Source of the DNA: Balneola sp.
GTDB lineage: Bacteria; Bacteroidota; Rhodothermia; Balneolales; Balneolaceae
Length of the DNA stretch: 64,000 nucleotides
Assembly: GCA_028284195.1 (NCBI GenBank)
Contig: JANQSE010000002.1
Coordinates: forward strand, 186,001-250,000
Direction: 5' to 3'
Below, piece by piece: positions 13,947-27,477 of the stretch; the stretch's first letter is position 1; each line of letters opens with the position of its first letter. The notes under the pieces were generated by a model, which ran no database searches, had not been told where the DNA came from, and saw nothing but the letters and a program-made list of their open reading frames with translations. The position numbers and the translations under genes are program-made.

Positions 13947-16900
13947 TTATTTGGCCAGTAACATTTTTTTCGAATACAGTTTACCAGCTACATTTAATCT
14001 GTAAATATACAAACCGGTAGATAGATTAGATGCATCGAAAGTAACCGTATGTATTCCGGCTGATCGTTGTCCATCTACTAACCTGGCCACTTCTTGCCCC
14101 AGCATATTGTACACCGAGATGGTTACATTCGCTGTTTCTTTAAGTTCATAACGAATGTTTGTTGAAGGGTTAAACGGGTTGGGATAATTCTGTAACAGAT
14201 CAGTCTGCTCGGGTAGTTCATCAAAGAGATTTTCGGATGAGGCTACAACTTTAGCTGAGCTTTGAGTGCCAAATACCATATAAGCAACTTGTTCTGTAGT
14301 ATGGCTTCTTTCACTGTTAGAGATCTGATCTTCATCAAATGCTACACTCAGATTTGAGGAAGAAACAGCCGAAGTTCCATATAGTAACGGCCAGCCGCCA
14401 TCATTGCCATCCATAGCGGCAGCACTTACAATTGCTCCTTCAGAAGAGCTTAACCCTGAAACTGAATAGTTATAAGGCGGTGCATTAGTCACGGATTTTA
14501 CAATATCAGCTCCCAAAGCAGCCGAATAAGGAGTGTTATCAATAGACCCTGATCCTGCTTCTATTACCAAATATCCAATGGTTTCATTAGCTCTGGTTTT
14601 ATCTGAATCTTCACCTACATGCTTTCCTATTTTTAAGTTCGATGAATTGGGAGCTGAAGTTCTTGATCCTCCACGAGCCCAGAAAACGGACCAATCAGAG
14701 TCATTGGCAGTCATTACCTGGCCTAAAACAACCGGTGAAGAATAGCTGTTGGTGTAAGATTGAGTTTGTGCATTCCATGAACCTTTGTAATCGGTGGTTG
14801 TAGAATTGACTTTAACGGCTTCCATCTTCACTCCATCAGAAGCGTCAGTGTAAACACCTTCTTCCAATGCAACATAGTGTACAGTATAACCGCTAAGTGA
14901 GGTATTACCTGGATTTTGAACCCGTAGCTCGAAACTATTACCGGAAGCATTACGGATTCTTGTTACTGCCGGATTGTCTCCATTGTCATATAGCGGTGTA
15001 GCAATAACCACCATAGAAGTATAGGTATCACTTAAAGTTACAGTTTGCCATGAAGAGCTTACTCCTGTTATTACACCTTGTGCAAATTTAATAGCAGATG
15101 TGTTTGTAACGGGATCAATAGTTGCAGTGGTTTGGACTGTATTTGTAGCACCATCATTATCGGTTACAGTAAGTGATACAGTATAGCTGCCCGATGTGCT
15201 GTACGTATGAGTGGGATTGGCTTGTGTGCTTGTATTCCCATCACCAAAATCCCAGCTATAAGAGGCAATAGTTCCATCACTATCGCTTGAGCCTGAACTG
15301 CTAAAAGTAACAGGAGAGCTTTCAGTTCCGGTATAAGTGCCATTTATTACAGCAACTGGTGGTACATTTGGCGCAGGTTGTGTTTGCGGGTTTCCATTTC
15401 CCGCAGCAACAGACCAATCTGAAAAGGTATCACTATCTGTTGCAGGATTGGTCCGATAGATAGAGCTTCCGGTTGAAGCTGTCGGCGCAGAAGTACTTCC
15501 CCATCCACTTGGAATACCTGAAGAAGCACCGCCTTCCCAGGCAACTTCATCTACTGTCTGAGCAGCAGCATTTTTCAAAATCAGTGCATCACCTGAATTG
15601 TTTAATGCAGGAACAGAGCCGTAAACATCCGCGTCATAAGAATACAAAGCATTGAAGCCTGTACTATTAACAGCTACGGTTAAATAAGTACCATTAAGAA
15701 CTACAGTATTCGAAGGGAAAGTATAAGTAGATCCCGTACCGTTATTATCGGTGATAGTCCAGCCCGAAACATCAACATCAGCTCCTGTGCTGTTATAAAT
15801 TTCGATCCATTCTTCCTGGGAATCTGTTCCGGGAGTGTCATAAAATATTTCGCTGAATAGTACTCCAGCTCCTGCTACGTTTGTTACTGTGACTGAAGCT
15901 GTTGCCATATCTGTCGCACCGAGATTATCAGTAATTGTTAGTTGAGCAGTATATGATCCCGCAGCATTATAAGTATGCGAAGGGTTAGCCTGGCTGCTGG
16001 TATTTCCATCACCAAAGTTCCAGCTATATGTGGCAATAGTTCCGTCACTGTCAGAAGACCCCGCACTGCTGAATTGAATTCCGGTTCCGGTATTGCCCGA
16101 ATATGGACCATTAGCCACAGCAACAGGTGGTGTATTGGTAGGTTGAGTTTGTGGATTTCCATTACCTGAAGCGGTATTCCAGTCAGAGAAAGAATCTGTA
16201 TCTGTAGTAATGCTGGCTCTTACTATGCTGTTCCCAGTTGAAGCTGAAGGAGCAGACGTGCTTCCCCAACCACTTGGCACTCCAGCAGATGCGCCACCTT
16301 CCCATGCCACAGCATCAATTAATGTGCTGGTATTATCCAAAAGCAGCAGAGCGTCGCCCCCATTATTTAGTGCAGGAATAGAACCGTAAACATCTGCATC
16401 ATACGCGTAAAGGGCATTAAAGCCAGTGCTGTTTTTTGCGATAGTTAAATACGTTCCGGCTTTAATATCTGTACCATTAGGAATAGTAAAAGAAGAGCCT
16501 GATCCATTATTATCAGTGATTGTCCATCCTGATAAATCTACTAATGAGGAAGTACCGTTATAGATTTCAATCCATTCTTCCTGAGAGTCAGTACCGGGCG
16601 TATCATAAAAGATTTCACTGAAAATTACTCCGGTGCCTGAACCTGTTCCAGTGGAGATAGTAACTGACGCAAAATCTGTATTCGTGGCTCCATCATCATC
16701 GGTTATTGTTAAGCTTGCTGTATAAGAACCATCTGCTGCATAGGTGTATGAAGGATTAGCCTGGCTACTGGTATTTCCATCACCAAAATCCCAATTATAG
16801 GAAACAACAGTTCCATCACTGTCGCTTGAGCCTGAACTGCTGAAAGTTATCGCGCTTGTGGTAGATCCGTTATATGGCCCATTAGCTTCTGCCAATGGTG

Positions 16901-17888
16901 GGGTGTTTCCTCCGCCGCTGCCGTTTAAACTAACAAAGTCGGCATATACCGGAAGGTGATCAGAGGCATCATGAAGCGCCTGAGCCACAGTCGCGGATAC
17001 TGCGGTATTTGTGCCATTTAGAATAGAAGTGTCAAAGTGATTGCCATCGTTACCGAAAGCAGTATAAGTTCCCGAAACCATATCAACTTTTGAGTTATCG
17101 TTGATTCCAAAAGAGGTAAGAATAAAATCAAAGCGGTCGTCTAATCCACCTGTAGCTCCACCTCCGAATTGAGTAGTTCTCGGACTCTGCGTATGTACAC
17201 TTGCAAAAGCAGGGTTTATATGCCAGTCACCAACTCCGCCTGATGATGCCAATGGGTCTTCTGCCCGTCCATCATTATCTGATTCATTTGCAATGAATTT
17301 TTGATAAGCAGGTTCATTACTGTCATACATATTAAAATCACCAACTATAATGAATTCAGTTCCCGCAGGAAGGTTGTTCAGGTGATTTCTTAGAATGGTT
17401 ACTTCATCTAATCTTTTTTGCTCGTTTGTAGAACCTGAGCTGGCTTTTAAGTGTGCACTATAAAACCGGATTTCGTTAGCACCAATTTGCATTACGTATT
17501 CAGAAAATTCCCGTAAAGCGGTTGGAATTTCATTCTGAGAAGTTAACGTTCCGATGGATGTTCTGTAGAATAACATGTTATCGGTGTCGGTGCCATTAAC
17601 AAATGTGGCACGGGAATATTGATTTCCTCCGGCATTTAAAGCAGATAAAATAAGATCGGCTCCGGCAGCGTCAACAATTTCCTGCATTAAAAGAATGTCA
17701 GGGTTTGCTGCTTGTAGTACAGTTTGGAATGCAGCCTGACGGTCTGTGTCGGTTCCGTCCAGCTTTAATCCATTATAGGTCATCACACGGAAGTTAACAT
17801 CCTGTGCAAATGCAAACGAAGAGAGTAGAAATATAAACAGAGCAGAAGTACTCAGATATTTTCTAAGAGAAATAGCGGATAAACGCAT
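13947..17888 (-). CDS. Secreted exonuclease/endonuclease/phosphatase protein with PKD, lamin-tail and type IX sorting domains
   Basis: A 1313-residue modular exoprotein. Order: signal peptide (1-28); an exonuclease/endonuclease/phosphatase fold (about 30-320) with ILLMQEI, IIVGDFNMYD and SDHLPVYADF; PKD domain 1 (about 325-410, WDFGDGNTSS); lamin-tail domain 1 (about 419-575, QEEWIEIYN); PKD 2 (about 584-665); lamin-tail 2 (about 672-830); PKD 3 (about 839-925); a beta domain (about 930-1200); and a C-terminal type IX sorting domain (about 1226-1313, QNYPNPFNPS). The catalytic residues look intact, suggesting extracellular nucleic-acid or phosphoester degradation. A clear GGAGG lies 4 bp before the ATG. 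The 5' leader is unusually structured. Confidence 0.88.
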   Translation of the reverse strand: MRLSAISLRKYLSTSALFIFLLSSFAFAQDVNFRVMTYNGLKLDGTDTDRQAAFQTVLQAANPDILLMQEIVDAAGADLILSALNAGGNQYSRATFVNGTDTDNMLFYRTSIGTLTSQNEIPTALREFSEYVMQIGANEIRFYSAHLKASSGSTNEQKRLDEVTILRNHLNNLPAGTEFIIVGDFNMYDSNEPAYQKFIANESDNDGRAEDPLASSGGVGDWHINPAFASVHTQSPRTTQFGGGATGGLDDRFDFILTSFGINDNSKVDMVSGTYTAFGNDGNHFDTSILNGTNTAVSATVAQALHDASDHLPVYADFVSLNGSGGGNTPPLAEANGPYNGSTTSAITFSSSGSSDSDGTVVSYNWDFGDGNTSSQANPSYTYAADGSYTASLTITDDDGATNTDFASVTISTGTGSGTGVIFSEIFYDTPGTDSQEEWIEIYNGTSSLVDLSGWTITDNNGSGSSFTIPNGTDIKAGTYLTIAKNSTGFNALYAYDADVYGSIPALNNGGDALLLLDNTSTLIDAVAWEGGASAGVPSGWGSTSAPSASTGNSIVRASITTDTDSFSDWNTASGNGNPQTQPTNTPPVAVANGPYSGNTGTGIQFSSAGSSDSDGTIATYSWNFGDGNTSSQANPSHTYNAAGSYTAQLTITDNLGATDMATASVTVTNVAGAGVLFSEIFYDTPGTDSQEEWIEIYNSTGADVDVSGWTITDNNGTGSTYTFPSNTVVLNGTYLTVAVNSTGFNALYSYDADVYGSVPALNNSGDALILKNAAAQTVDEVAWEGGASSGIPSGWGSTSAPTASTGSSIYRTNPATDSDTFSDWSVAAGNGNPQTQPAPNVPPVAVINGTYTGTESSPVTFSSSGSSDSDGTIASYSWDFGDGNTSTQANPTHTYSTSGSYTVSLTVTDNDGATNTVQTTATIDPVTNTSAIKFAQGVITGVSSSWQTVTLSDTYTSMVVIATPLYDNGDNPAVTRIRNASGNSFELRVQNPGNTSLSGYTVHYVALEEGVYTDASDGVKMEAVKVNSTTTDYKGSWNAQTQSYTNSYSSPVVLGQVMTANDSDWSVFWARGGSRTSAPNSSNLKIGKHVGEDSDKTRANETIGYLVIEAGSGSIDNTPYSAALGADIVKSVTNAPPYNYSVSGLSSSEGAIVSAAAMDGNDGGWPLLYGTSAVSSSNLSVAFDEDQISNSERSHTTEQVAYMVFGTQSSAKVVASSENLFDELPEQTDLLQNYPNPFNPSTNIRYELKETANVTISVYNMLGQEVARLVDGQRSAGIHTVTFDASNLSTGLYIYRLNVAGKLYSKKMLLAK
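15370..16950 (-). repeat. Tandem PKD plus lamin-tail duplication inside the exonuclease gene
   Basis: Two copies of a unit of roughly 765 bp (about 255 residues), with a third PKD copy, are still similar at DNA level. Examples are the SEIFYDTPGTDSQEEWIEIYN segments near 16630 and 15865, and three near-identical FGDGNTSSQANPS segments. This suggests recent internal duplication. Confidence 0.75.
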
Positions 17889-18189: not shown

Positions 18190-18780
18190 ATGAAATTTAA
18201 GTGGTGGTTTATTCCTTTCGGATTACTTGCAGTGTACGCAATTGTGTTTCCATTCTTTTTCAGAAACCCTGAATACCCAATGTTCTTTACAGTGTATTCT
18301 GTATTTAATGGCACATTAGAGCATCAGGCGATTGATGGTAATAAAGAGAAATTACAAGAGAATTATAAGGCAGTAACTTTGGGTAGCCTGGCTCCTGATT
18401 TTATTTTGTCTGGTATGAATGGCAAGAAAGTTTCTTTATCAGATTTTGAAGGGAAAACCGTGTTACTGATGTTTTGGGCATCGTGGTGTCCAACTTGTCG
18501 CGGAGAAAATAAAGAGCTTACCGGGCTTTATCCTGAATACAAAGATCAGGGTTTTGAAATAGTTGGCATTTCCTTGGATCGCAGTAAAACCAATTGGGAA
18601 AAAGCTGTGGAAAAAGATGGAGTAGCCTGGGTGCAGCTTTCGGATTTACAAGGAACCGAATCACCTGTTGCTACTGAATACGGGGTGTATGCCACCCCGG
18701 CTACTTTTTTGATTGATAGTGCTGGTGTGGTGATTGGGAAAGATGTGAGAAGTGAAGAGTTGGATAATTATTTAAGGTAG
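18190..18780 (+). CDS. TlpA-like membrane-anchored thioredoxin/redoxin
   Basis: A 196-residue protein with one N-terminal membrane helix (about residues 4-24) and a periplasmic thioredoxin fold of the AhpC/TSA-redoxin/TlpA type. The active site is WASWCPTCRGE (near residue 100) and the cis-proline loop is VYATPATFLID. It is expected to reduce periplasmic disulfides, for example in cytochrome c maturation. The start at 18190 is the first ATG and gives a normal membrane anchor. The last 13 bp overlap the end of the convergent RAYT gene. Confidence 0.88.
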   Translation: MKFKWWFIPFGLLAVYAIVFPFFFRNPEYPMFFTVYSVFNGTLEHQAIDGNKEKLQENYKAVTLGSLAPDFILSGMNGKKVSLSDFEGKTVLLMFWASWCPTCRGENKELTGLYPEYKDQGFEIVGISLDRSKTNWEKAVEKDGVAWVQLSDLQGTESPVATEYGVYATPATFLIDSAGVVIGKDVRSEELDNYLR

Positions 18781-19373
18781 AATTTATCTTGATCCCAATT
18801 TTTGGGATTGGTTTGGATGTATTCTGATATTCTCTGATAAGACCCTTGGTCTCGGATGATATGATCATAAAATCTGGGTTGCCATCGAAAATCGCGACGG
18901 ATCTTTCGTGCGTTTTTGGTTACCCCAATTTTAAATCCCCTGACAATTGATGCCAGGTTGTTTGATTGCGGGCCAAATTGATTTTGTGATTTTTGTTTTG
19001 AATTGCGTAGAGGCGCAATACCTTGCGCCTCCCTAGGGGTTTTAATTATATCGTCATTTTGAGACGCAAAATGTTGCGCCTCTACGGATTCATCATTTGA
19101 TTTATCAATCAAAACAATTCCATGAACATGATTTGGCATAACAATGAATTCGCCCAACTGAACAAATGGAAAATGATCCGGGATTTCGTTCCAACATCGA
19201 TTTACAATTTTTCCTATATCCGAAAAAATCATTTTTTGATCGGAAATTTCCCCAAAGAAAGGTTTCCGGTTTTGGGTACAAATAGTTACAAAATAGGCGC
19301 CATTCCAACTATAGTTCCAGGACTTCAACCGGGATGTTTCAGTGCGGTATTTGTTTTTGAATTTTCCAGACAT
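18768..19373 (-). CDS. REP-associated tyrosine transposase (RAYT, TnpA_REP type)
   Basis: Single-copy-type HUH transposase related to IS200/IS605 enzymes, thought to move or process REP palindromes. The 201-residue protein has the HUH motif MPNHVHGIV near residue 80 and the catalytic tyrosine in QRISEYIQTNPKNW near residue 184. RLKSWNYSWNGAYFVTICTQ at the N-terminus is typical. It is about 20-40 residues longer than many relatives because a central insert (residues about 95-125) is encoded by REP-like palindromes in frame. There are no terminal inverted repeats of an IS around it. It lies 5 bp downstream of the REC-TrxR gene and overlaps the end of the tlpA-like gene. Confidence 0.88.
   Translation of the reverse strand: MSGKFKNKYRTETSRLKSWNYSWNGAYFVTICTQNRKPFFGEISDQKMIFSDIGKIVNRCWNEIPDHFPFVQLGEFIVMPNHVHGIVLIDKSNDESVEAQHFASQNDDIIKTPREAQGIAPLRNSKQKSQNQFGPQSNNLASIVRGFKIGVTKNARKIRRDFRWQPRFYDHIIRDQGSYQRISEYIQTNPKNWDQDKFYLK
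19006..19086. repeat. Pair of REP-like palindromes inside the RAYT gene
   Basis: Palindrome A has a perfect 9-bp stem (19010-19018 with 19023-19031, loop TACC). Palindrome B has a 9-bp stem with one mismatch (19061-19069 with 19074-19082, loop AATG). The outer ends form a perfect 13-bp inverted repeat, CGTAGAGGCGCAA (19006-19018) with its complement at 19074-19086. GTAGAGRCGCAA-type palindromes are a known REP form in this part of the tree. Both copies are translated in the same frame (EAQHFAS and EAQGIAPLR). Confidence 0.7.
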
Positions 19374-19378
19374 TCATA

Positions 19379-21046
19379 TCACAAATTTGAATCGGCTAAG
19401 TATTCGTGCACATACTTAATGCTCATGGCTCCTTCGCCTACGGCAGAGGCAACCCGGTTCATGGCCCCGGCACGAACGTCTCCTGCTGCAAAAACTCCGG
19501 GCGCACAAGATTCAAGTAAATAAGGTTGACGTTCCAGCTTCCACACTTTGGAGTATTTATCGTACTTCTGCAGATCACGGCCGGTCTCAATAAATCCACG
19601 ATCATTCTTGATCACATTATCGTGAATCCAATCGGTATAAGGCCGGGCTCCTATAAAAATGAACAAACCATCTGCTTCTACATCGTATTCGGTATCAGAT
19701 TGATTATCAAATAAGGTTAACCCTTCTAAGTGACCATTTCCGTTCGCCCCTGCTATTTCTCTATGCCCAATTACTTCAATATTTTCGGCACCCTTAATCT
19801 GATCAATCAGGTACGATGACATGCTTGAAACCAAAGAATTTCTTCGGATGGTGATATACACATTTTTAGCAAATGTGGAGAGATACATGGCTGCCTGCCC
19901 TGCCGAATTACCTCCACCTACAACATAAACCTGTTTGTCTTTAAAGGCATGAGCTTCCGTCATTGCGGCGCCATAATAGATGCCTGCTCCGGTGTAATCA
20001 GAAATGCCCCTGCTTTCCAGCTTCCGGTAATTCACTCCGGTGGTAACTACTACAGCTTTAGCATTAATTTCACTTCCATCTGCCATGCAAACCGTTTTGT
20101 ACTGGTCGTTAAGTTTGATATCAACTACTTCTTGCGGGGATAAAAACTCTACACCAAAACGAGTGGCCTGTGTGATGGCTCTTCGGGCCAGATCGGAACC
20201 ACTCAATCCTTTCGGGAAGCCTAAATAATTTTCGATTCGTGAACTTGTACCTGCTTGTCCACCGGGAGCTCTTTTTTCAATCAATAATGTTTTTAAACCT
20301 TCAGATCCACCATAAACAGCAGCAGCTAACCCGGCAGGACCAGCACCTATGATAGCGACATCATACACATTTTCTGAAGCCGAAGGGCTGCGCCCTAATT
20401 TTTTAGCAATCTGAATGGGAGTAGGGTTGCATATATGTTCTCCATCTTCGAAGAAAATAGCAGGGAGATCTTTTTGATCTATTCCTGAATCCTGAAGAAG
20501 CTCGCTTGCTTTTTCACTTTCTTCTATGTCCAGCCATCTGAAAGGAATCAGGTTCCCGGACAGATAGTCTTTAACCACATGTGATTTTGGCGAATACTGA
20601 TACCCAGCCAATTTGATTCCTGTGAATTCCGGTTTAAAGCCAGCCTGCCACTCATCCAGTAAGTCATCCAGGATAGGATATAACTTCTCCGTTGGAGGAT
20701 CCCAAGGTTTTAACAAGTAATAGTCGAGTTGAACTTCATTAATGGCACGAATCGCAGCATCTGTATCAGAGTAGGCGGTTAGAAGCACCCGTTTTGCTTC
20801 AGGAAATATTTTTCTTGCTTGCTCTAAAAACTCAACTCCAATCATCTCAGGCATGCGTTGATCAGATAAAAACAGGGCTACGGTTTCCCCTTTTTTCTTT
20901 AGCTCCGGTAAACTTTCTAACGCTTCTTTGGGGGACTGGGTGCTCATTACACGGTAATCCTGCCGGTAATTGCTTCGTAAATCCCGGTTTATTGCCCGAA
21001 GTACCTGGGCATCATCATCAATTGCGAATATTATTGGTTTGTTCAT
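19379..21046 (-). CDS. Fused response regulator / Grx-like / thioredoxin-reductase-like flavoprotein
   Basis: From the ATG at 21046 the protein has 555 residues. A receiver domain (about 3-125) has the acidic pocket IDDD, phospho-acceptor SDQRMPEM, LLTAYSD and LKPWD. A glutaredoxin-like region (about 135-215, SPKSHVVKDYL, LPAIFF) has no CxxC. The TrxR-like part (about 228-550) has FAD-binding IIGAGPAGLAAA, NADP-binding VVGGGNSAGQAA and FAAGDVR, but the CxxC of true thioredoxin reductases is absent, as in ferredoxin/flavodoxin-NADP reductase-like members. It is probably a phosphorylation-controlled NAD(P)H flavoprotein paired with the upstream histidine kinase. A frame from 21094 is possible but adds no domain. 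Confidence 0.85.
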   Translation of the reverse strand: MNKPIIFAIDDDAQVLRAINRDLRSNYRQDYRVMSTQSPKEALESLPELKKKGETVALFLSDQRMPEMIGVEFLEQARKIFPEAKRVLLTAYSDTDAAIRAINEVQLDYYLLKPWDPPTEKLYPILDDLLDEWQAGFKPEFTGIKLAGYQYSPKSHVVKDYLSGNLIPFRWLDIEESEKASELLQDSGIDQKDLPAIFFEDGEHICNPTPIQIAKKLGRSPSASENVYDVAIIGAGPAGLAAAVYGGSEGLKTLLIEKRAPGGQAGTSSRIENYLGFPKGLSGSDLARRAITQATRFGVEFLSPQEVVDIKLNDQYKTVCMADGSEINAKAVVVTTGVNYRKLESRGISDYTGAGIYYGAAMTEAHAFKDKQVYVVGGGNSAGQAAMYLSTFAKNVYITIRRNSLVSSMSSYLIDQIKGAENIEVIGHREIAGANGNGHLEGLTLFDNQSDTEYDVEADGLFIFIGARPYTDWIHDNVIKNDRGFIETGRDLQKYDKYSKVWKLERQPYLLESCAPGVFAAGDVRAGAMNRVASAVGEGAMSIKYVHEYLADSNL

Positions 21047-21069
21047 TATTATTGTTGAGTGATTAATGA

Positions 21070-21104
21070 TTAGTGTTAAGTGGCTTGCTCTCACTTAGCA
21101 CTAA
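21070..21104. repeat. Hairpin between the histidine kinase and REC-TrxR genes
   Basis: A 13-bp stem with one mismatch (21070-21082 with 21092-21104), 9-nt loop, sits in the 76-bp gap. There is no U run on either side, so it is not a standard terminator. It may be a dispersed palindrome or an mRNA stability element setting kinase/regulator ratios. Confidence 0.4.
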
Positions 21105-21122
21105 GAGTTCAACATTTAAAAA

Positions 21123-22523
21123 TTATTTGAGTGGAAAACATAGCTCAAAAACTGTTTTTCCTGGTTCTGATTTAACATCAATTCTTCCGCCATGTTTTTC
21201 GACAATCTTGTGAACTACATCCAACCCTAATCCGGTGCCTTCTCCCACATCTTTTGTTGTGAAAAAAGGATCAAAGATTTTGGGGATAACATCTTCAGGG
21301 ATTCCGGCACCATTGTCCTGAAAATAAAGAAACAGGTCCCCATTTTTTGATTCAGCACGTACGTTAATTTCTCCTGATTCCTCGACGGCATCGATGGCAT
21401 TATCAAGTATATTGGTCCATACCTGGTTTAACTCGCTTACATATCCACAGAATTCGGGTAAATCAGAAGGAATCTGAAGATCAATAGTAACCTGCTTTTT
21501 TTTGGCTTTATGATTGAGCATTGTAATGGTACTTTTTAGAAGTTTCTTCAAATCCACGATTTCTTTATCGGTGCCGCGATCCATATGCGAATATGTTTTC
21601 ACAGAAGAAACCAAATCAGAAATACGCCGGGCAGAGTCTTCAATTTCTTCTACCATTTTTTCAGTAGTTAGCACATCTTCAATCCATCCTAAAACCGGAG
21701 GCAGATATTCATCTGAGACATTTTCTCTTACAAATTCCAGATCATCTGTATCAAAACAAAATTCGGCGAATGTTTCAGAATATTCAAAACCATTTTCTAC
21801 CCCGTGGTCTTCCATCCAATCAGTAAGTTCATCTTCAAGTACTGTTCGTTCCATTAAAGATTGCTGATTGGAAGATCCTTTGTTGGCTTTTTTAAATACA
21901 AGGTCGTTTACGGCATCTACCTGTTCGTTAGTCAGCCGCACGTTCATTACAGCTTTGAACTTATCGGGTGTTTGAGAAAGCCGGTTCTTTAATTCTGTAG
22001 CACCTCGAACCATTGCCGAAGCCGGGTTATTTAACTCATGTGCTAATCCGGCAGAAAGCTTTCCTAGGGCAACCAGTTTTTCGTTTTGCTGCTGTTGAGA
22101 AGTAAAACTTCTTATTCGATCTGAAAGGTTATGTACCAATGCCTCGATTAATTCATAGTGTTTGGTGATTTCAACAAACAGGCTTTCATGGGTTTCGAGT
22201 ATGGTAGCGTCTTCCATCACTATTAAATGTGCCAGTGTGGATTGCATTCTTGAAAAAGGAAGCCTGCCTGATATATCGCCGGTGCCAAAATCACCAACAT
22301 TTGTGAACGAATTGCCGCGAGGAAGTTGAATACGAATAAGGCCATCCAGTATGATGAACATTTTTGTGATCTCTACTCCTGGTTCTATGATTTTTTCATC
22401 GGGTGCATAGGTGCAGATTTCTGAATTCTCCACCAGCCAAGCCAGTTGATCTAGAGGCACATTCTCGAATTGAGAGAAACTCTTAAGGGTTTGAACAGCA
22501 TATTCCTGAACGGTAGTACTCAT
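21123..22523 (-). CDS. Cyclic-nucleotide-binding-domain sensor histidine kinase
   Basis: A soluble 466-residue kinase without membrane helices. An N-terminal Crp/cNMP-type domain (about 15-135; IIEPGVEITKMFIILDGLIRI) is followed by the dimerisation/H-box LGKLSAGLAHELNNPASA near residue 160, an unusually long insert (about 190-280), and an ATPase domain (about 320-466) with N box NILDNAIDAV, G1 DNGAGIP and G2 GTGLGLDVV. It presumably phosphorylates the receiver of the REC-TrxR protein encoded next. The ligand of the cNMP fold is unknown. Its ATG overlaps the UBP zinc-finger stop (ATGA), implying translational coupling. Confidence 0.9.
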   Translation of the reverse strand: MSTTVQEYAVQTLKSFSQFENVPLDQLAWLVENSEICTYAPDEKIIEPGVEITKMFIILDGLIRIQLPRGNSFTNVGDFGTGDISGRLPFSRMQSTLAHLIVMEDATILETHESLFVEITKHYELIEALVHNLSDRIRSFTSQQQQNEKLVALGKLSAGLAHELNNPASAMVRGATELKNRLSQTPDKFKAVMNVRLTNEQVDAVNDLVFKKANKGSSNQQSLMERTVLEDELTDWMEDHGVENGFEYSETFAEFCFDTDDLEFVRENVSDEYLPPVLGWIEDVLTTEKMVEEIEDSARRISDLVSSVKTYSHMDRGTDKEIVDLKKLLKSTITMLNHKAKKKQVTIDLQIPSDLPEFCGYVSELNQVWTNILDNAIDAVEESGEINVRAESKNGDLFLYFQDNGAGIPEDVIPKIFDPFFTTKDVGEGTGLGLDVVHKIVEKHGGRIDVKSEPGKTVFELCFPLK

Positions 22524-22771
22524 AGCATTTCATTGTGGATGTAACAGTAGCGCCAATCTTCTCCGGGTTCAACAGAGCGAATAATGGGATGATCGTTTCT
22601 CATGTAATGTTTTCGGGCGTGTTTATTCTTTGATGAATCGCAGCAGCCCACATACCCGCAGGTCATGCACATTCGTAAATGAACCCAGGCATGGCCCTGC
22701 TGAACACATGTTTCACATTCGTGAAATTCGGGTTCCAAAACTTCGATCATGTTTTCATGTTCGCAGGGCAT
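22520..22771 (-). CDS. UBP-type zinc finger protein
   Basis: An 83-residue protein consisting only of a zinc finger of the ubiquitin-carboxyl-terminal-hydrolase type (ZnF-UBP), better known from eukaryotic USP and HDAC6 proteins. Metal-ligand pattern seen: C-x-H near the start, ECETC, HLRMCMTCGYVGCCD, then HARKHYMRNDHPI. The pocket region ends EPGEDWRYCY, like the tryptophan-containing loop that binds a free C-terminal glycine in the eukaryotic family. There is no ubiquitin here, so the ligand is unknown; a C-terminal peptide is a reasonable guess. It overlaps the kinase gene by 4 bp and follows the DsbA-like gene by 5 bp. Confidence 0.85.
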   Translation of the reverse strand: MPCEHENMIEVLEPEFHECETCVQQGHAWVHLRMCMTCGYVGCCDSSKNKHARKHYMRNDHPIIRSVEPGEDWRYCYIHNEML

Positions 22772-22776
22772 AATTC

Positions 22777-23298
22777 CTATATTTTATTTTCTCGGATAAA
22801 TTCTTTGATAGCATTATAACTTAAATCACCTTTGTACTTCTTTTCGTTCATAAAAAAAGTAGGGGTATCATTTACTCCGTGTTTCACACCGCTTCTGAAA
22901 TCATGCTGAACCCATTTTAAAAAAGAATGAGCTTCCAGATCGACAGAAAACTTTCTGAAATCCAGATTAAGTGTTTGTGCAAAATCATCCAGCAGCTCTC
23001 TGTTCAGGTTTTGGTTGTTTTCAAAAAGCAGATCATGCATTTCCCAGAATCTGTCCTGATCTCCGGCACAAAGAGCAGCTTCTGCACATATCTCGGCATT
23101 AGGATGTTTCTTTTTAATGGGGAAATGGCGAAATACAAATTGCAGGTTCGGATCGTCTTTGAGGAATTTTTGAGCAAACCTGTAACCCAGCCTGCTAAAA
23201 GGGCATTCGTAATCGCCGTATTCAATGAGAATGTTTTGCGAAGAGGGATTTCCTTTCCGGTGTTCTTCGTTTCTGATATGTAAGCTGTAATCGGGCAT
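22777..23298 (-). CDS. DsbA-like thioredoxin-fold protein with a CPFS (monothiol) active site
   Basis: A 173-residue protein with the DsbA/FrnE-type thioredoxin fold: strand LIEYGDYECPFSR, the inserted helical domain (AEICAEAALCAGDQDRFWEMHDLLF) and the cis-proline loop VNDTPTFF. No signal peptide is present, so it is probably cytoplasmic. The usual CxxC is CPFS, leaving a single active-site cysteine. Similar domains accompany or are fused to Na+/H+ antiporters, and an antiporter gene lies upstream here. A candidate 42-residue ORF stops 1 bp before its ATG. A role as redox-responsive partner is an inference. Confidence 0.82.
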   Translation of the reverse strand: MPDYSLHIRNEEHRKGNPSSQNILIEYGDYECPFSRLGYRFAQKFLKDDPNLQFVFRHFPIKKKHPNAEICAEAALCAGDQDRFWEMHDLLFENNQNLNRELLDDFAQTLNLDFRKFSVDLEAHSFLKWVQHDFRSGVKHGVNDTPTFFMNEKKYKGDLSYNAIKEFIRENKI

Positions 23299-23299
23299 T

Positions 23300-23428
23300 T
23301 TAAAAAGACAGGCGGTAGCGATGAGTCCACCCAGTCATAAATTGAGCTGCATCAAAAATGTGTGGATCCATCATTCCACTCTGGATGACTGTAATTTTGT
23401 TTTGAATAGATGTATAAATAGTGTTCAT
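23300..23428 (-). CDS. Candidate small protein (42 residues) coupled to the DsbA-like gene
   Basis: A short reading frame starting ATG at 23428 (MNTIYTSIQNKITVIQSG...) and ending ...HRYRLSF, with TAA followed by a single A and the ATG of the DsbA-like gene. No membrane segment or known domain. The one-base spacing to the next start is the arrangement expected for a translated upstream gene or leader peptide. The rest of the 283-bp gap (23429-23581) has an imperfect hairpin around 23507-23521 and nothing else I can name. Confidence 0.45.
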   Translation of the reverse strand: MNTIYTSIQNKITVIQSGMMDPHIFDAAQFMTGWTHRYRLSF

Positions 23429-23581
23429 CGTCAGGGTTCTTTACAAAAATCCTGGTTTTAACCTCTCCTGATTTTGAAATTGTTCGGAACTAGTAAATAG
23501 TGCCTCCGCTCCTGAATCAGGAGGGGATAGAGGGAAGGTAAAAGTAAGGCTTTTATTCAATTTGGTTGATTTCTATTTCAA

Positions 23582-25165
23582 TTAATCCAATATGGCTTCC
23601 TGCATATCAAGATCCAGAGACATTGAACCATCGATTTTTTCACTGATACTGATCTCAGCAAGTTTTCTTCCAGCCTGGATCAAAGGTAAACACACCGCAT
23701 TTGCACCTGCCTCTTTCAATGCCTGATGTTCTTCATCCCGCATGGTGAGTGCATAAATATCGGCGGTATATTTATTCTCGCGAAGCATTTTTGTTGCGGA
23801 AACTTTCGTATCTGGGTTTGGCATAGCAAGCATTACTGCTTTTACATCTTCCAGATCTATGTTTTCCCAAAGTTCTGCATCCTGTGCATCACCATAAACA
23901 ACTCTGCGTTTTTTTTTAAGATTCTCTTCAATTCTTGCGGGGTCAACATCCATTCCGGTAACCCTGTATTCCCGTTCTTTGAGATAGTCGTAAGCAGATG
24001 AACCGGCCTGACCCATTCCAATAATCAAATACTCTGCACCTCCAAGATTTACTACCTGTTGTCCCGGATGCTTAACATTGCGCTCGAAAGGAATAAGCGA
24101 ATGTTCGTATTTTTTCCAGAGTGCGTTTGCTTTGGATGAAAGCGGAGCATTGAGGGTATAAGAAACGGCAGTAAGTAAAGCGAAAACGATAATCACGGAA
24201 TCAGGAATAAAACCAGCTGATGCAGCCACCATTCCTGCGATCAAAGTAAATTCACTAAATGAACTTAAAGTAACGGTAACCATGTAAGAATTTCTCGAAC
24301 GCAATTTGAACAGTATCAGCAAAAAGAAGAATAGAAGCGCCTTTATGGGAAGGATAGCAAATAAGGCTCCGGCAAAAATCAGATCGTTAAGAGCAGGAAG
24401 TCCCGCAAGGCCAACTTCTAGGAAAAACCCGACAAGAAATGCTTCTTTTAAACCCCAGAGTTTTTCAGAAAGCTCGTCAGACTGTTGTGTTCCCGATAAT
24501 AAAGCTCCGGCAACTAATGCTCCAAGCTCAGAAGAAAGCCCGAGTACATCGAACAGAGCCGCTCCTCCCATTGCCAGTAATAAACCATAAAGAAGCTGCA
24601 AATCTTCATGCCCACTCGCAGTAAGAAGTTTGAATAACAATGGACGAAGAAGAGGAAGTCCTAATAATGCAAAGCTCCAAAGTGAAGGAATGCCTCCACC
24701 TGTTAGAGCTAGCACAGTTATAGCTACTAAATCCTGAAGAATAAGTATACCAATAGAAACCCTGGCGTGATAAGCACCTAATTCACCTCTTGCTTCCAGA
24801 GTTTTTGCGGCCAAAACGGTACTTGAGAATCCAAGCAACGTTCCAATGATTAACCCTTCAATGAACGTATATCCAAACGCCATGGAGATACCCAGAAAAA
24901 TTCCGGCAGATATAATGAGATGAATGCTTCCTGCTCCGAATACTTCGGGGCGCAGTATGTTTTTTAATCGCAAATGCAGCCCTACGGTAAACAGCAGAAA
25001 GATGACCCCATAGTGACCGATCGTGTGCAGAAGCCCATTTTCATCGGTAATACCAAAAGCAGAAAGGATTACACCAGCAATTAAATAACCAATTAACGGG
25101 GGAAGCTTTAATTGCTTAACACCCATTCCTAAAACATAAGCGATACCCAGCCAGAGAATTTCCAT
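23582..25165 (-). CDS. CPA2-family cation:proton antiporter with RCK/TrkA-N domain (KefB-like)
   Basis: A 527-residue membrane protein: about 12 hydrophobic helices (residues 1-360, with GFSSTVLAAKTL and SELGALVAGALLSGT typical of the Na+/H+ exchanger fold) followed by a cytoplasmic NAD-binding RCK_N domain (about 375-500, LIIGMGQAGSSAYDYL with the GxGxxG fold and VYGDAQD). KefB/KefC-type systems expel K+ in exchange for protons and are gated by glutathione adducts in proteobacteria. Here it lies first in a minus-strand run with redox-type genes. The ion is not determined by sequence. The ATG at 25165 leads directly into helix 1. Confidence 0.88.
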   Translation of the reverse strand: MEILWLGIAYVLGMGVKQLKLPPLIGYLIAGVILSAFGITDENGLLHTIGHYGVIFLLFTVGLHLRLKNILRPEVFGAGSIHLIISAGIFLGISMAFGYTFIEGLIIGTLLGFSSTVLAAKTLEARGELGAYHARVSIGILILQDLVAITVLALTGGGIPSLWSFALLGLPLLRPLLFKLLTASGHEDLQLLYGLLLAMGGAALFDVLGLSSELGALVAGALLSGTQQSDELSEKLWGLKEAFLVGFFLEVGLAGLPALNDLIFAGALFAILPIKALLFFFLLILFKLRSRNSYMVTVTLSSFSEFTLIAGMVAASAGFIPDSVIIVFALLTAVSYTLNAPLSSKANALWKKYEHSLIPFERNVKHPGQQVVNLGGAEYLIIGMGQAGSSAYDYLKEREYRVTGMDVDPARIEENLKKKRRVVYGDAQDAELWENIDLEDVKAVMLAMPNPDTKVSATKMLRENKYTADIYALTMRDEEHQALKEAGANAVCLPLIQAGRKLAEISISEKIDGSMSLDLDMQEAILD

Positions 25166-25326
25166 GTTGAGAAATTATAATGTTTGCCGAAGGTCTTTCT
25201 TCGGAAGAATTATGAACACTGAATTGTAGTGAATTAATTCATTATTCATAATCGTGAATTCAAAATTCTTTGAACTTTATAATCTGTTGCTTTGACAGAG
25301 CTATATGTAAAGAAGCTTTATTTAGA

Positions 25327-26055
25327 TTATTGGTTTTGAACCAGAAATTCGTTGGTAGCAAAAGTTTTCGAAAGCTTTTTAAGAAGCGTATTAGTTAAAG
25401 AGGCTATATTTTTTTGTTTGAGTTCCTCAACATTCTTTTCATGATTGATTTTTACGAACCGGTCGTACGATTTGGCTTTAGCCCGAAAGGATGTGTAGAT
25501 ATATCCATTTCTGACATCTATCAAGTGAACATCAAGGTAGCTGGTAACCTCAAGTGTATTTCCTTTCATAAATAACATAGGAGCCAGCGCAAAATAAGTA
25601 ACGCCTAACAGATTCGAATCTGAAGTAACTTTGTGCCCTGTACCAAAAAATAAAATCAAATCGCTATGAGATCTTGCTGCGATAGTTCTCAGTTTTTTTG
25701 GGTCTGTAGCCGGAGGTGATGAATATGAATAATGCCAGGGATTTCTTAATCGGGAGTAGTACTTTCCACCTTCAACCAAAGCAGGAGAAAGGTGAGTTAC
25801 AGCGCGTATTTCCTTAAACTTTTTTAGAGAATCAGAAATTGCCAACGATTCGAATCCGGCATCATATATTGTAAGTTTAATGGGAAGTTTTATCTGAGGG
25901 TTTTGTTTAAAGGCTTCCTGAATGGTACTGTCTGTGTATTGGAATCCCTGAGGGTCGCTTTCATAAGTGGATATTGCCGGCATATAGCCGGAGGAAGCAC
26001 ATTGTATGGTCAAAAAAGAATAGATAAGCAGCAAAAGAAAAAGGGTACTCTTCAT
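25327..26055 (-). CDS. Predicted lipoprotein, unknown function
   Basis: From the ATG at 26055 the 242-residue protein begins with a hydrophobic signal peptide and lipobox (TIQC, Cys near residue 20), so it is likely anchored in the outer membrane or periplasm. No named domain is recognised. The visible pattern is alpha/beta with ARSHSDLILFFGTG and a strand-rich second half (TSYLDVHLIDVRNGYIYTSF), somewhat like small periplasmic proteins in which 'DVRNG' precedes a membrane-exposed strand. A start 7 codons earlier (26076) is also possible. It is divergent from the M48 gene, with no neighbours that suggest function. Confidence 0.65.
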   Translation of the reverse strand: MKSTLFLLLLIYSFLTIQCASSGYMPAISTYESDPQGFQYTDSTIQEAFKQNPQIKLPIKLTIYDAGFESLAISDSLKKFKEIRAVTHLSPALVEGGKYYSRLRNPWHYSYSSPPATDPKKLRTIAARSHSDLILFFGTGHKVTSDSNLLGVTYFALAPMLFMKGNTLEVTSYLDVHLIDVRNGYIYTSFRAKAKSYDRFVKINHEKNVEELKQKNIASLTNTLLKKLSKTFATNEFLVQNQ

Positions 26056-26057
26056 GT

Positions 26058-26225
26058 ATGATAATTTTGTTAACAAAATTCTTTTCTAACGCTATATCAG
26101 GTAAAGAGTTCCCAGGGGCTGGCAGCTATGTGGCCAATCGAAATTTATATCTGTTTAAAAAACGCTTTGAGTTTGGGAATTGGCGCGGCAAGATTATTAA
26201 AACTGTGTATTTTAACCCTCGCTGA
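26058..26225 (+). CDS. Possible small ORF (55 residues) upstream of the M48 protease gene
   Basis: An ATG frame beginning MIILLTKFFSN and ending IIKTVYFNPR fills the 189-bp divergent intergenic region and stops 19 bp before the M48 start. It has a hydrophobic N-terminus and an aromatic/basic C-terminus. There is no ribosome-binding site or homology I can name, and a frame of this size can arise by chance, so it is only a candidate. Confidence 0.2.
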   Translation: MIILLTKFFSNAISGKEFPGAGSYVANRNLYLFKKRFEFGNWRGKIIKTVYFNPR

Positions 26226-26244
26226 ATAATTATTTGAAGACTAC

Positions 26245-27477
26245 ATGAACATTTACGCCATTGTTATTCTGGCAGCTATTGCTGTTGACTTTATACTCGA
26301 TATCGTATCGAATCAACTTAACCTGAAGGCACTGCGCAAAGAAGTACCCGAAGAATTTGAGGATATTTATGATGAGGAGACGTATACCAAATCTCAGGAA
26401 TATACGTGGGCAGGAACACGCTTTGGTTTTGTTACCGGAACATTCGATGCAGGGCTTTTATTGGCTTTCTGGTTTTCAGGCGGGTTTAATATGCTGGATC
26501 AGTGGATAAGAAGCTGGGAGTTCAGCGAATTGGTAACGGGTATTTTGTTCATCTTCATACTCATCGTTGCTAAATCCGTTATCTCACTGCCATTTGGTAT
26601 ATATTCCACTTTCGTGATCGAAGAGCGATTCGGTTTCAACAAAACTACTGCCAAAACCTTTGTTGTTGATTTACTGAAAGGGTTGATGTTGAGTATCATT
26701 ATTGGGATTCCTGTTCTTGCAGGAATACTCGCATTCTTTATGTACACCGGAGAGCTTGCCTGGCTTTATGCCTGGAGTGCCATTACGTTGTTTACGCTTA
26801 TTATGCAGTATGTAGCACCTACATGGATTATGCCTCTTTTCAATACATTCACTCCGCTCGAAGACGGGGAATTACGAACGGCGATCGAAGAATACACAAA
26901 GAAGGTTAACTTTCCGTTGCAGGGGCTGTTTGTAATTGATGGCTCTAAAAGATCGAGTAAATCGAATGCATTCTTTACAGGGTTTGGGAAAAACAAACGA
27001 GTAGCTTTGTACGATACACTTATAGAAAATCACACAAATGATGAGTTGGTTGCCGTGCTGGCTCATGAAATTGGGCATTACAAGAAAAAACACATCATCA
27101 AAGGAATGATTCTAAGTGTGATACAAACCGGAGTAATGTTATTTGTTTTATCCATTTTTTTAAATGATGAAGGGTTGTTCAATGCCTTTTATATGGATGA
27201 AATGTCGGTATATGCCGGACTTATTTTTTTTAGTATGCTGTACGCTCCAATTAATATGGTGCTTTCTATTTATATGCAGATTTTCTCAAGAAAGCATGAA
27301 TATGAAGCCGATGCATATGCCGCTGAAACAACCGGCAAACCCGGAGATATGATTTCGACGCTTAAAAAACTGTCAAAAGATAATCTTTCAAATCTTACTC
27401 CTCATCCGTTTTATGTATTTTTGAATTATTCTCACCCTACGGTTTTGGAACGCATTAAAGCAATTAAACGGCTGTAA
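26245..27477 (+). CDS. M48 family metallopeptidase (CAAX protease / Ste24-like)
   Basis: Membrane zinc protease of 410 residues, homologous to Ste24/CAAX prenyl protease 1. Several N-terminal membrane helices, then ERFGFNKTT, the zinc site LAHEIGHYKKKH (HExxH near residue 273), the next helix pair, and the third ligand in HEYEADAYAAE (near residue 352). The C-terminal NYSHPTVLERIKAI is typical of the family. In bacteria these enzymes are linked to envelope protein quality control; there is no isoprenylation system here. The start at 26245 gives the standard N-terminus. Confidence 0.92.
   Translation: MNIYAIVILAAIAVDFILDIVSNQLNLKALRKEVPEEFEDIYDEETYTKSQEYTWAGTRFGFVTGTFDAGLLLAFWFSGGFNMLDQWIRSWEFSELVTGILFIFILIVAKSVISLPFGIYSTFVIEERFGFNKTTAKTFVVDLLKGLMLSIIIGIPVLAGILAFFMYTGELAWLYAWSAITLFTLIMQYVAPTWIMPLFNTFTPLEDGELRTAIEEYTKKVNFPLQGLFVIDGSKRSSKSNAFFTGFGKNKRVALYDTLIENHTNDELVAVLAHEIGHYKKKHIIKGMILSVIQTGVMLFVLSIFLNDEGLFNAFYMDEMSVYAGLIFFSMLYAPINMVLSIYMQIFSRKHEYEADAYAAETTGKPGDMISTLKKLSKDNLSNLTPHPFYVFLNYSHPTVLERIKAIKRL

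Follow-up and report, generated by a model that had tools for sequence, protein, structure and literature searches.

A conserved bacterial gene set with a ZnF-UBP protein, a REC-Grx-TrxR-like flavoprotein lacking redox cysteines and a cation/proton antiporter

What might a stand-alone ZnF-UBP zinc finger, a two-component phosphorelay and a flavoprotein related to thioredoxin reductase (TrxR, or TR) be doing together beside a membrane antiporter in a bacterium? The question is raised by a locus in Balneola sp., in a stretch of 64,000 nucleotides (contig JANQSE010000002.1 of assembly GCA_028284195.1, positions 186,001 to 250,000) that is referred to here as the window. The window sits in a genome of 2.68 Mb, and the nearest relatives at the locus are Balneolaceae. 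Its minus strand, read from 25165 to 19379, encodes in this order an antiporter, a DsbA-like protein, a zf-UBP protein, a histidine kinase and a fusion of receiver (REC), glutaredoxin-like (Grx) and TrxR-like domains. The gene set is real and is widely conserved in bacteria. Tentatively, we read it as a redox- or electrophile-gated cation (probably K+)/proton antiporter that may resemble the KefC-KefF system while being built of different parts. The features of the locus are as follows.

23582 to 25165, minus strand: CPA2 (KefC/YbaL-like) monovalent cation/proton antiporter with TrkA_N (RCK/KTN) domain (Pfam; KefC structure 8bxg)
23299 to 23581, no strand: stretch without counterpart in relatives, holding a 42-codon open reading frame and a repeat-like piece (locus comparison)
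22777 to 23298, minus strand: DsbA-like (Thioredoxin_4) protein, monothiol CPFS (Pfam)
22520 to 22771, minus strand: stand-alone ZnF-UBP protein of 83 residues (Pfam zf-UBP; profile match to 2ida; alignment of 81 sequences)
21123 to 22523, minus strand: histidine kinase with a degenerate cyclic-nucleotide-binding (cNMP)-like N-terminal domain (Pfam; H, N and G boxes)
19379 to 21046, minus strand: response regulator with REC, Grx/mycoredoxin-like and TrxR-like FAD/NAD(P)H domains (Pfam; alignments; PDB profile; AlphaFold2)

Conservation and arrangements of the gene set

A preliminary description of the locus, made from the letters alone, had listed these five genes and a small open reading frame. 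The five are all confirmed, as are the motifs reported with them (SPKSHVVKDYL, GGGNSAGQAA without a CxxC, and CPFS), and the small frame is no conserved gene. An overlap of 4 bases joins the UBP and kinase genes, and a gap of 5 bases separates the DsbA and UBP genes. The open reading frame of the REC-Grx-TrxR fusion spans 19379-21094, the first ATG at 21046 being the likelier start. Scans for promoters and terminators gave signal near chance.

Scanning bacterial and archaeal genomes for UBP proteins yielded 80 loci from many phyla, and profiles made from the proteins of the window served to label the neighbouring genes. All 27 antiporters found there are fused to the UBP or lie within 1 kb of it, none occurring at 1-10 kb, and 27 of the 28 TrxR-like genes lie within 2 kb. 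Among 117 genomes of the order, 17 encode the UBP, 17 encode REC-Grx-TR and 15 encode both, with the two genes adjacent in all 15; the co-occurrence has a Fisher value of 6e-15 without correction for relatedness. When 394 genomes sampled from the phylum were examined, 19 genomes outside the family had UBP, and 18 of these also had the TR protein (Fisher 2e-17, based on a conservative total); the genes are kept together in only about half of the non-family genomes with UBP and TR. The preliminary description had considered that the genes might rarely be found together in related genomes, an outcome that did not occur, and its view of the cluster as one functional unit is supported by co-occurrence, adjacency and fusions. 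Its suggestion of a phosphorelay acting on an NAD(P)H enzyme and tuning an antiporter also gains support, both in the signalling by phosphorylation into an NAD(P)H flavoprotein and in the link to the antiporter.

Four arrangements have been identified. The Balneolales have separate genes for the antiporter, UBP, kinase and REC-Grx-TR, with or without the DsbA-like gene. A second class (L096, L097 and L098) encodes an antiporter-UBP fusion, the kinase and REC-Grx-TR in one operon, and the gene order of L097 matches that of the window. UBP, kinase and REC-Grx-TR are found without an antiporter in Acidobacteria, Cyanobacteria and Ktedonobacter. In the remaining class (L019, L026, L051, L057, L066 and L104) the UBP gene adjoins a cNMP-Grx-TR fusion, and kinase and REC are missing. 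Two loci, L082 and L083, of the Balneolales genomes G007 and G050, carry antiporter, DsbA, kinase and REC-TR genes with no UBP between DsbA and kinase and may be regarded as natural UBP deletions.

Loss of thiol, cyclic-nucleotide and ubiquitin-tail residues

The TrxR-like part of the fusion has FAD and NAD(P) Rossmann domains, recognised by Pfam and by structure matches, and it matches the structures 3lzw and 5xhu. In an alignment with E. coli TrxB the CxxC is missing from 28 of 28 sequences, namely the window protein and 27 relatives, and eight further relatives from other families of the phylum likewise lack it (0/35 relatives in total). The position reads YYGA or YYAA, both tyrosines being invariant. 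No cysteine is invariant anywhere in the REC-Grx-TR chain, and the glycine motifs for FAD and NAD(P) are invariant. The Grx-like domain of the single protein scores 18.8 bits in Pfam, below the cut-off of 22.9; the family profile matches mycoredoxin 2LQO (E-value: 1e-8), with cysteine-free SPxS-type residues where mycoredoxin has CGYC. An AlphaFold2 model of the fusion (pLDDT 83.5, pTM 0.65) shows the thioredoxin-type order of strands and helices in the Grx-like domain, and its closest whole-chain fold is AhpF. AhpF has the same order of a thioredoxin-fold domain followed by a TrxR module, but relays electrons through CxxC pairs, of which the window fusion has none. The family-wide loss in full-length proteins rules out sequencing error or a pseudogene as the source of the missing cysteines, and the absence of dithiols from the two parts, reported earlier for the window protein, thus holds for the family. 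Judged from the alignments, thiol chemistry is gone from the REC-Grx-TR family and the flavin motifs are kept.

Such a protein might be a phosphorylation-controlled quinone reductase or ferredoxin/flavodoxin reductase, the antiporter and UBP being co-regulated stress genes that are physically uncoupled from it. TrxR-like flavoproteins without CxxC do include ferredoxin/flavodoxin NADP reductases, as described in PMC9137726 and PMC10294844, and the matches to 3lzw and 5xhu agree with this, as does the occurrence of the TR-kinase pair without antiporter in several phyla; the MhqO and esterase neighbours described below would suit detoxification. We regard this explanation as unlikely, as operons that encode the TR-kinase pair also encode a covalent fusion of UBP and antiporter, and the distances between the genes are much smaller than a loose regulon would lead one to expect.

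The absence of any conserved thiol and the two invariant tyrosines could also mean that the TR-like domain performs no catalysis and serves as a silent NAD(P)H/FAD redox sensor feeding back on the kinase, with REC as its docking part rather than an output receiver and gene expression as the output. The cNMP-TR version, in which a sensor-like domain is directly fused, would fit such an arrangement. The module has no DNA-binding domain, however, and alignments show that the REC acceptor Asp and switch residues and the H, N and G boxes of the kinase are all intact, which makes a silent sensor distinctly unlikely.

The cNMP domain of the kinase is recognised by Pfam. When 26 cNMP-like domains were aligned with CRP of E. 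coli, the Arg-Ser of the phosphate-binding cassette nevertheless proved to be missing from every one, and the Balneolales kinases lack the cassette Glu as well. Sensing of cyclic nucleotides, to which the initial label of a cNMP-domain kinase pointed, is doubtful at the residue level and is disfavoured by the loss of the cassette Arg in 26/26 domains.

The UBP protein scores 46.7 bits against the zf-UBP cut-off of 22.7, and its profile matches the solved relative 2ida (E-value: 2e-34). The Cys/His set of presumed zinc ligands is invariant in 81 UBP sequences. In USP5 and HDAC6 the Arg of the CGR/GR motif holds the C-terminal carboxylate of ubiquitin. This pocket Arg is replaced by Asp or Ser in all 81 UBP domains aligned, the CGR/GR of USP16 and HDAC6 being aligned with C-D-S. 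Recognition of a free C-terminus, as first proposed for the window protein, is therefore disfavoured, having lost its main support with the residue that holds the carboxylate.

In 11 of the scanned loci, in other phyla, CPA2 antiporters carry UBP as their C-terminal domain. A fusion protein of Micromonospora has a Na_H_Exchanger domain at 11-372 followed by UBP at 419-484, in the position usually occupied by RCK. UBP genes also adjoin antiporters of the CPA1 and NhaA types, and UBP is fused to an MFS transporter. Because of these fusions and neighbours, the best view of UBP, as far as domain architecture can tell, is that of a regulatory domain associated with antiporters, with the TR flavoprotein as a further partner. 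UBP might instead sense zinc or thiol stress on behalf of membrane transporters, in which case TR, kinase and DUF5996 would be alternative partners in unrelated uses. The spare cysteine that such a sensor could employ is present, as an extra invariant Cys (GCC) adjoins a presumed zinc ligand, and UBP does occur next to DUF5996 and next to, or as part of, transporters of the CPA2, CPA1, NhaA and MFS types; but in this order the gain and loss of UBP go with those of REC-TR, and we take the sensor to be quite improbable.

The pairing of UBP with DUF5996 is seen in 23 of the 80 loci, within 1 kb in all 23 (for example L014:6229-7418 and L022:5554-8449), and a CPA1-type Na+/H+ exchanger is also present in three of them. 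This is apparently a separate, second partner system. At another locus (L099:4971-8471) an antiporter-UBP fusion is followed by two open reading frames, which by eye are similar to a retropepsin-like zinc protease and a RimK-like ATP-grasp protein.

The antiporter, its quinone-stress neighbours and a possible mechanism

KefC (8bxg) is the closest solved homologue of the window antiporter (E-value: 4e-25), which keeps the QD motif of the ion site, known as a potassium motif (PMC11150392). The antiporter scores under the cut-offs of the NCBIfam models for KefC, YbaL and KefB. The glutathione ligands Q412 and R416 of KefC and its gate residue F441 (PMC10224563) align with S, D and K in the window protein, the TrkA_N domain of which ends at residue 494 of 527, and the C-terminal domain of KefC is missing. 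Gating by glutathione is disfavoured by the replacement of these ligands. A glutathione-gated Kef system with odd accessory genes, which the CPA2 fold with KTN and QD motif and the closeness to KefC might suggest, is given a very small probability in view of the three substitutions and the missing domain. Among the genes at 18190-27477 there is none for a flavodoxin-like subunit of the KefF/KefG type.

In 10 of 14 Balneolales-type loci besides that of the window, the region immediately upstream of the antiporter holds genes for an MhqO-like dioxygenase and an esterase (for example L082:9408-11089 and L084:8765-10465). The pair is found nearby in two further loci of the 14, and the MhqO homologue alone in one. 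The dioxygenase shares high similarity with MhqO of B. subtilis (3oaj, E-value: 1e-71), a hydroquinone dioxygenase. The esterase we take to be MhqD-like, after the mhqNOD operon of Bacillus. Quinones or electrophiles are the likely stress.

E. coli KefF is a quinone reductase that is required for full activity of KefC, and its enzyme activity is not directly required for KefC activation (PMC10224563). With this precedent and the MhqO and esterase neighbours, a Kef-like antiporter gated by a flavoprotein is the most economical reading. The kinase would phosphorylate the REC domain of an FAD/NAD(P)H flavoprotein devoid of disulfide chemistry, and the state of this flavoprotein, set by NAD(P)H/FAD redox and by phosphorylation, would reach the antiporter by way of the ZnF-UBP protein. 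The latter may dock onto the antiporter from the cytosol or gate it there, and is a covalent part of it in other phyla. Quinone or electrophile stress would thereby alter the efflux of K+ and the pH of the cytoplasm, and the module probably lets cells open the exchanger under redox or electrophile stress. We infer the direction of signalling, the contacts of UBP with antiporter and flavoprotein, the ion and the stimulus. A more general proposal, that a phosphorelay flavoprotein free of redox thiols gates antiporters of several unrelated families by its NAD(P)H/FAD state and not by disulfide exchange, through a bacterial UBP that no longer recognises ubiquitin tails and has turned into a module regulating transporters, is possible but doubtful.

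Several observations weigh against the flavoprotein-gated antiporter. The genome of the window, which is smaller, has no MhqO homologue, and the electrophile link therefore rests on relatives. Since the catalysis of KefF is dispensable for KefC activation, the analogy with KefC does not force a redox mechanism. The set of UBP, kinase and TR in Acidobacteria and Cyanobacteria has no antiporter nearby, many REC-Grx-TR genes of other families do not lie near an antiporter or UBP, and two Balneolales genomes (G007 and G050) carry the cluster without UBP. Gene order, moreover, cannot show which component signals to which.

The bacterial ZnF-UBP, an ancient relative of the ubiquitin-reading fold, hereby gains a concrete and testable job as an antiporter regulator. 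The gene set suggests a route by which the NAD(P)H redox state could be coupled to K+/H+ exchange in cells without KefF-type subunits, and the natural fusions, with antiporter-UBP beside kinase and REC-Grx-TR, point to contacts worth testing.

Accessory features and comparison with known systems

The DsbA-like protein has CPFS in place of the CxxC of DsbA/Thioredoxin_4, as first described, and relatives have CPYS or CPFS, all Balneolales copies checked being monothiol. A signal peptide is not evident by eye. The gene is missing from 6 of the 11 Balneolales loci of the UBP scan and is a lineage-specific addition. The 283-base stretch at 23299-23581 is missing from relatives, where the antiporter and DsbA genes touch. 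None of the 80 loci has a match to its small open reading frame (23300-23428, 42 codons), which is ruled out as a gene by this lack of conservation and by its position in an insertion with repeat-like DNA. The piece at about 23317-23390 resembles a short interspersed repeat of the same genome, with several short copies of 75-90% identity elsewhere; some of these cluster near G000:C12:465171-465541. Together the copies form a family of short interspersed repeats.

Downstream of the REC-TrxR gene the window has an open reading frame (18768-19373) similar to Y1 (IS200-like) transposases, though below the Pfam cut-off, and a similar frame is also found downstream of the cluster in L082. A protein of 1313 residues (13947-17888) appears by eye to comprise an endonuclease/exonuclease-like N-terminus, PKD-like repeats and a C-terminus similar to type IX secretion sorting signals.

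NhaA antiporters with a C-terminal Thioredoxin_4 domain belong to the same DsbA-like family as the window gene. Such a fusion lies side by side with UBP and Grx-TR genes in a metagenome-assembled actinobacterial genome (L020:8689-12169). This homologue has a CPHC dithiol, whereas the window protein (CPFS) and its relatives (CPYS or CPFS) are monothiol and the window antiporter is of the CPA2 type.

Response regulators of the REC-TrxR type ('Mycobacterium-like') have been catalogued, the combination being mentioned in passing (PMC5847659), and the earlier remark that no described system of this exact composition is known was too strong. These regulators share a receiver and a TrxR-like domain with the window fusion, for which we document in addition that the middle domain is Grx-like and that every redox cysteine has been lost. 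A search of an open literature library found no paper describing combinations of UBP, redox proteins, REC-TrxR, antiporter and MhqO.

The likeness to KefC-KefF lies in the CPA2 antiporter, which has a KTN domain and the QD motif, in an NAD(P)H flavoprotein as cytosolic partner and in the electrophile context. The window system differs in having neither the glutathione ligands nor the C-terminal glutathione domain, and its FAD protein is TrxR-like whereas KefF is flavodoxin-like; UBP and the phosphorelay are extra at the window locus.

Burroughs, Iyer and Aravind are said to have predicted, in Mol BioSyst in 2011, a bacterial ZF-UBP system of cyclic nucleotide-dependent redox signalling. It reportedly shares with the present loci the stand-alone bacterial ZF-UBP, cNMP-type domains, redox enzymes and conserved neighbourhoods. 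The ZF-UBP gene is tied here to a TrxR-like flavoprotein, as in that system, of which, in the form reported, the locus is a well-resolved member. It differs in that the cNMP-like domains lack the phosphate-binding Arg and that a phosphorelay version, antiporter fusions and MhqO neighbours are seen. What may be new is the evidence at residue level that speaks against chemistry based on thiols, cyclic nucleotides and ubiquitin tails, together with the operons that combine an antiporter-UBP fusion with a phosphorelay flavoprotein and the link to MhqO.

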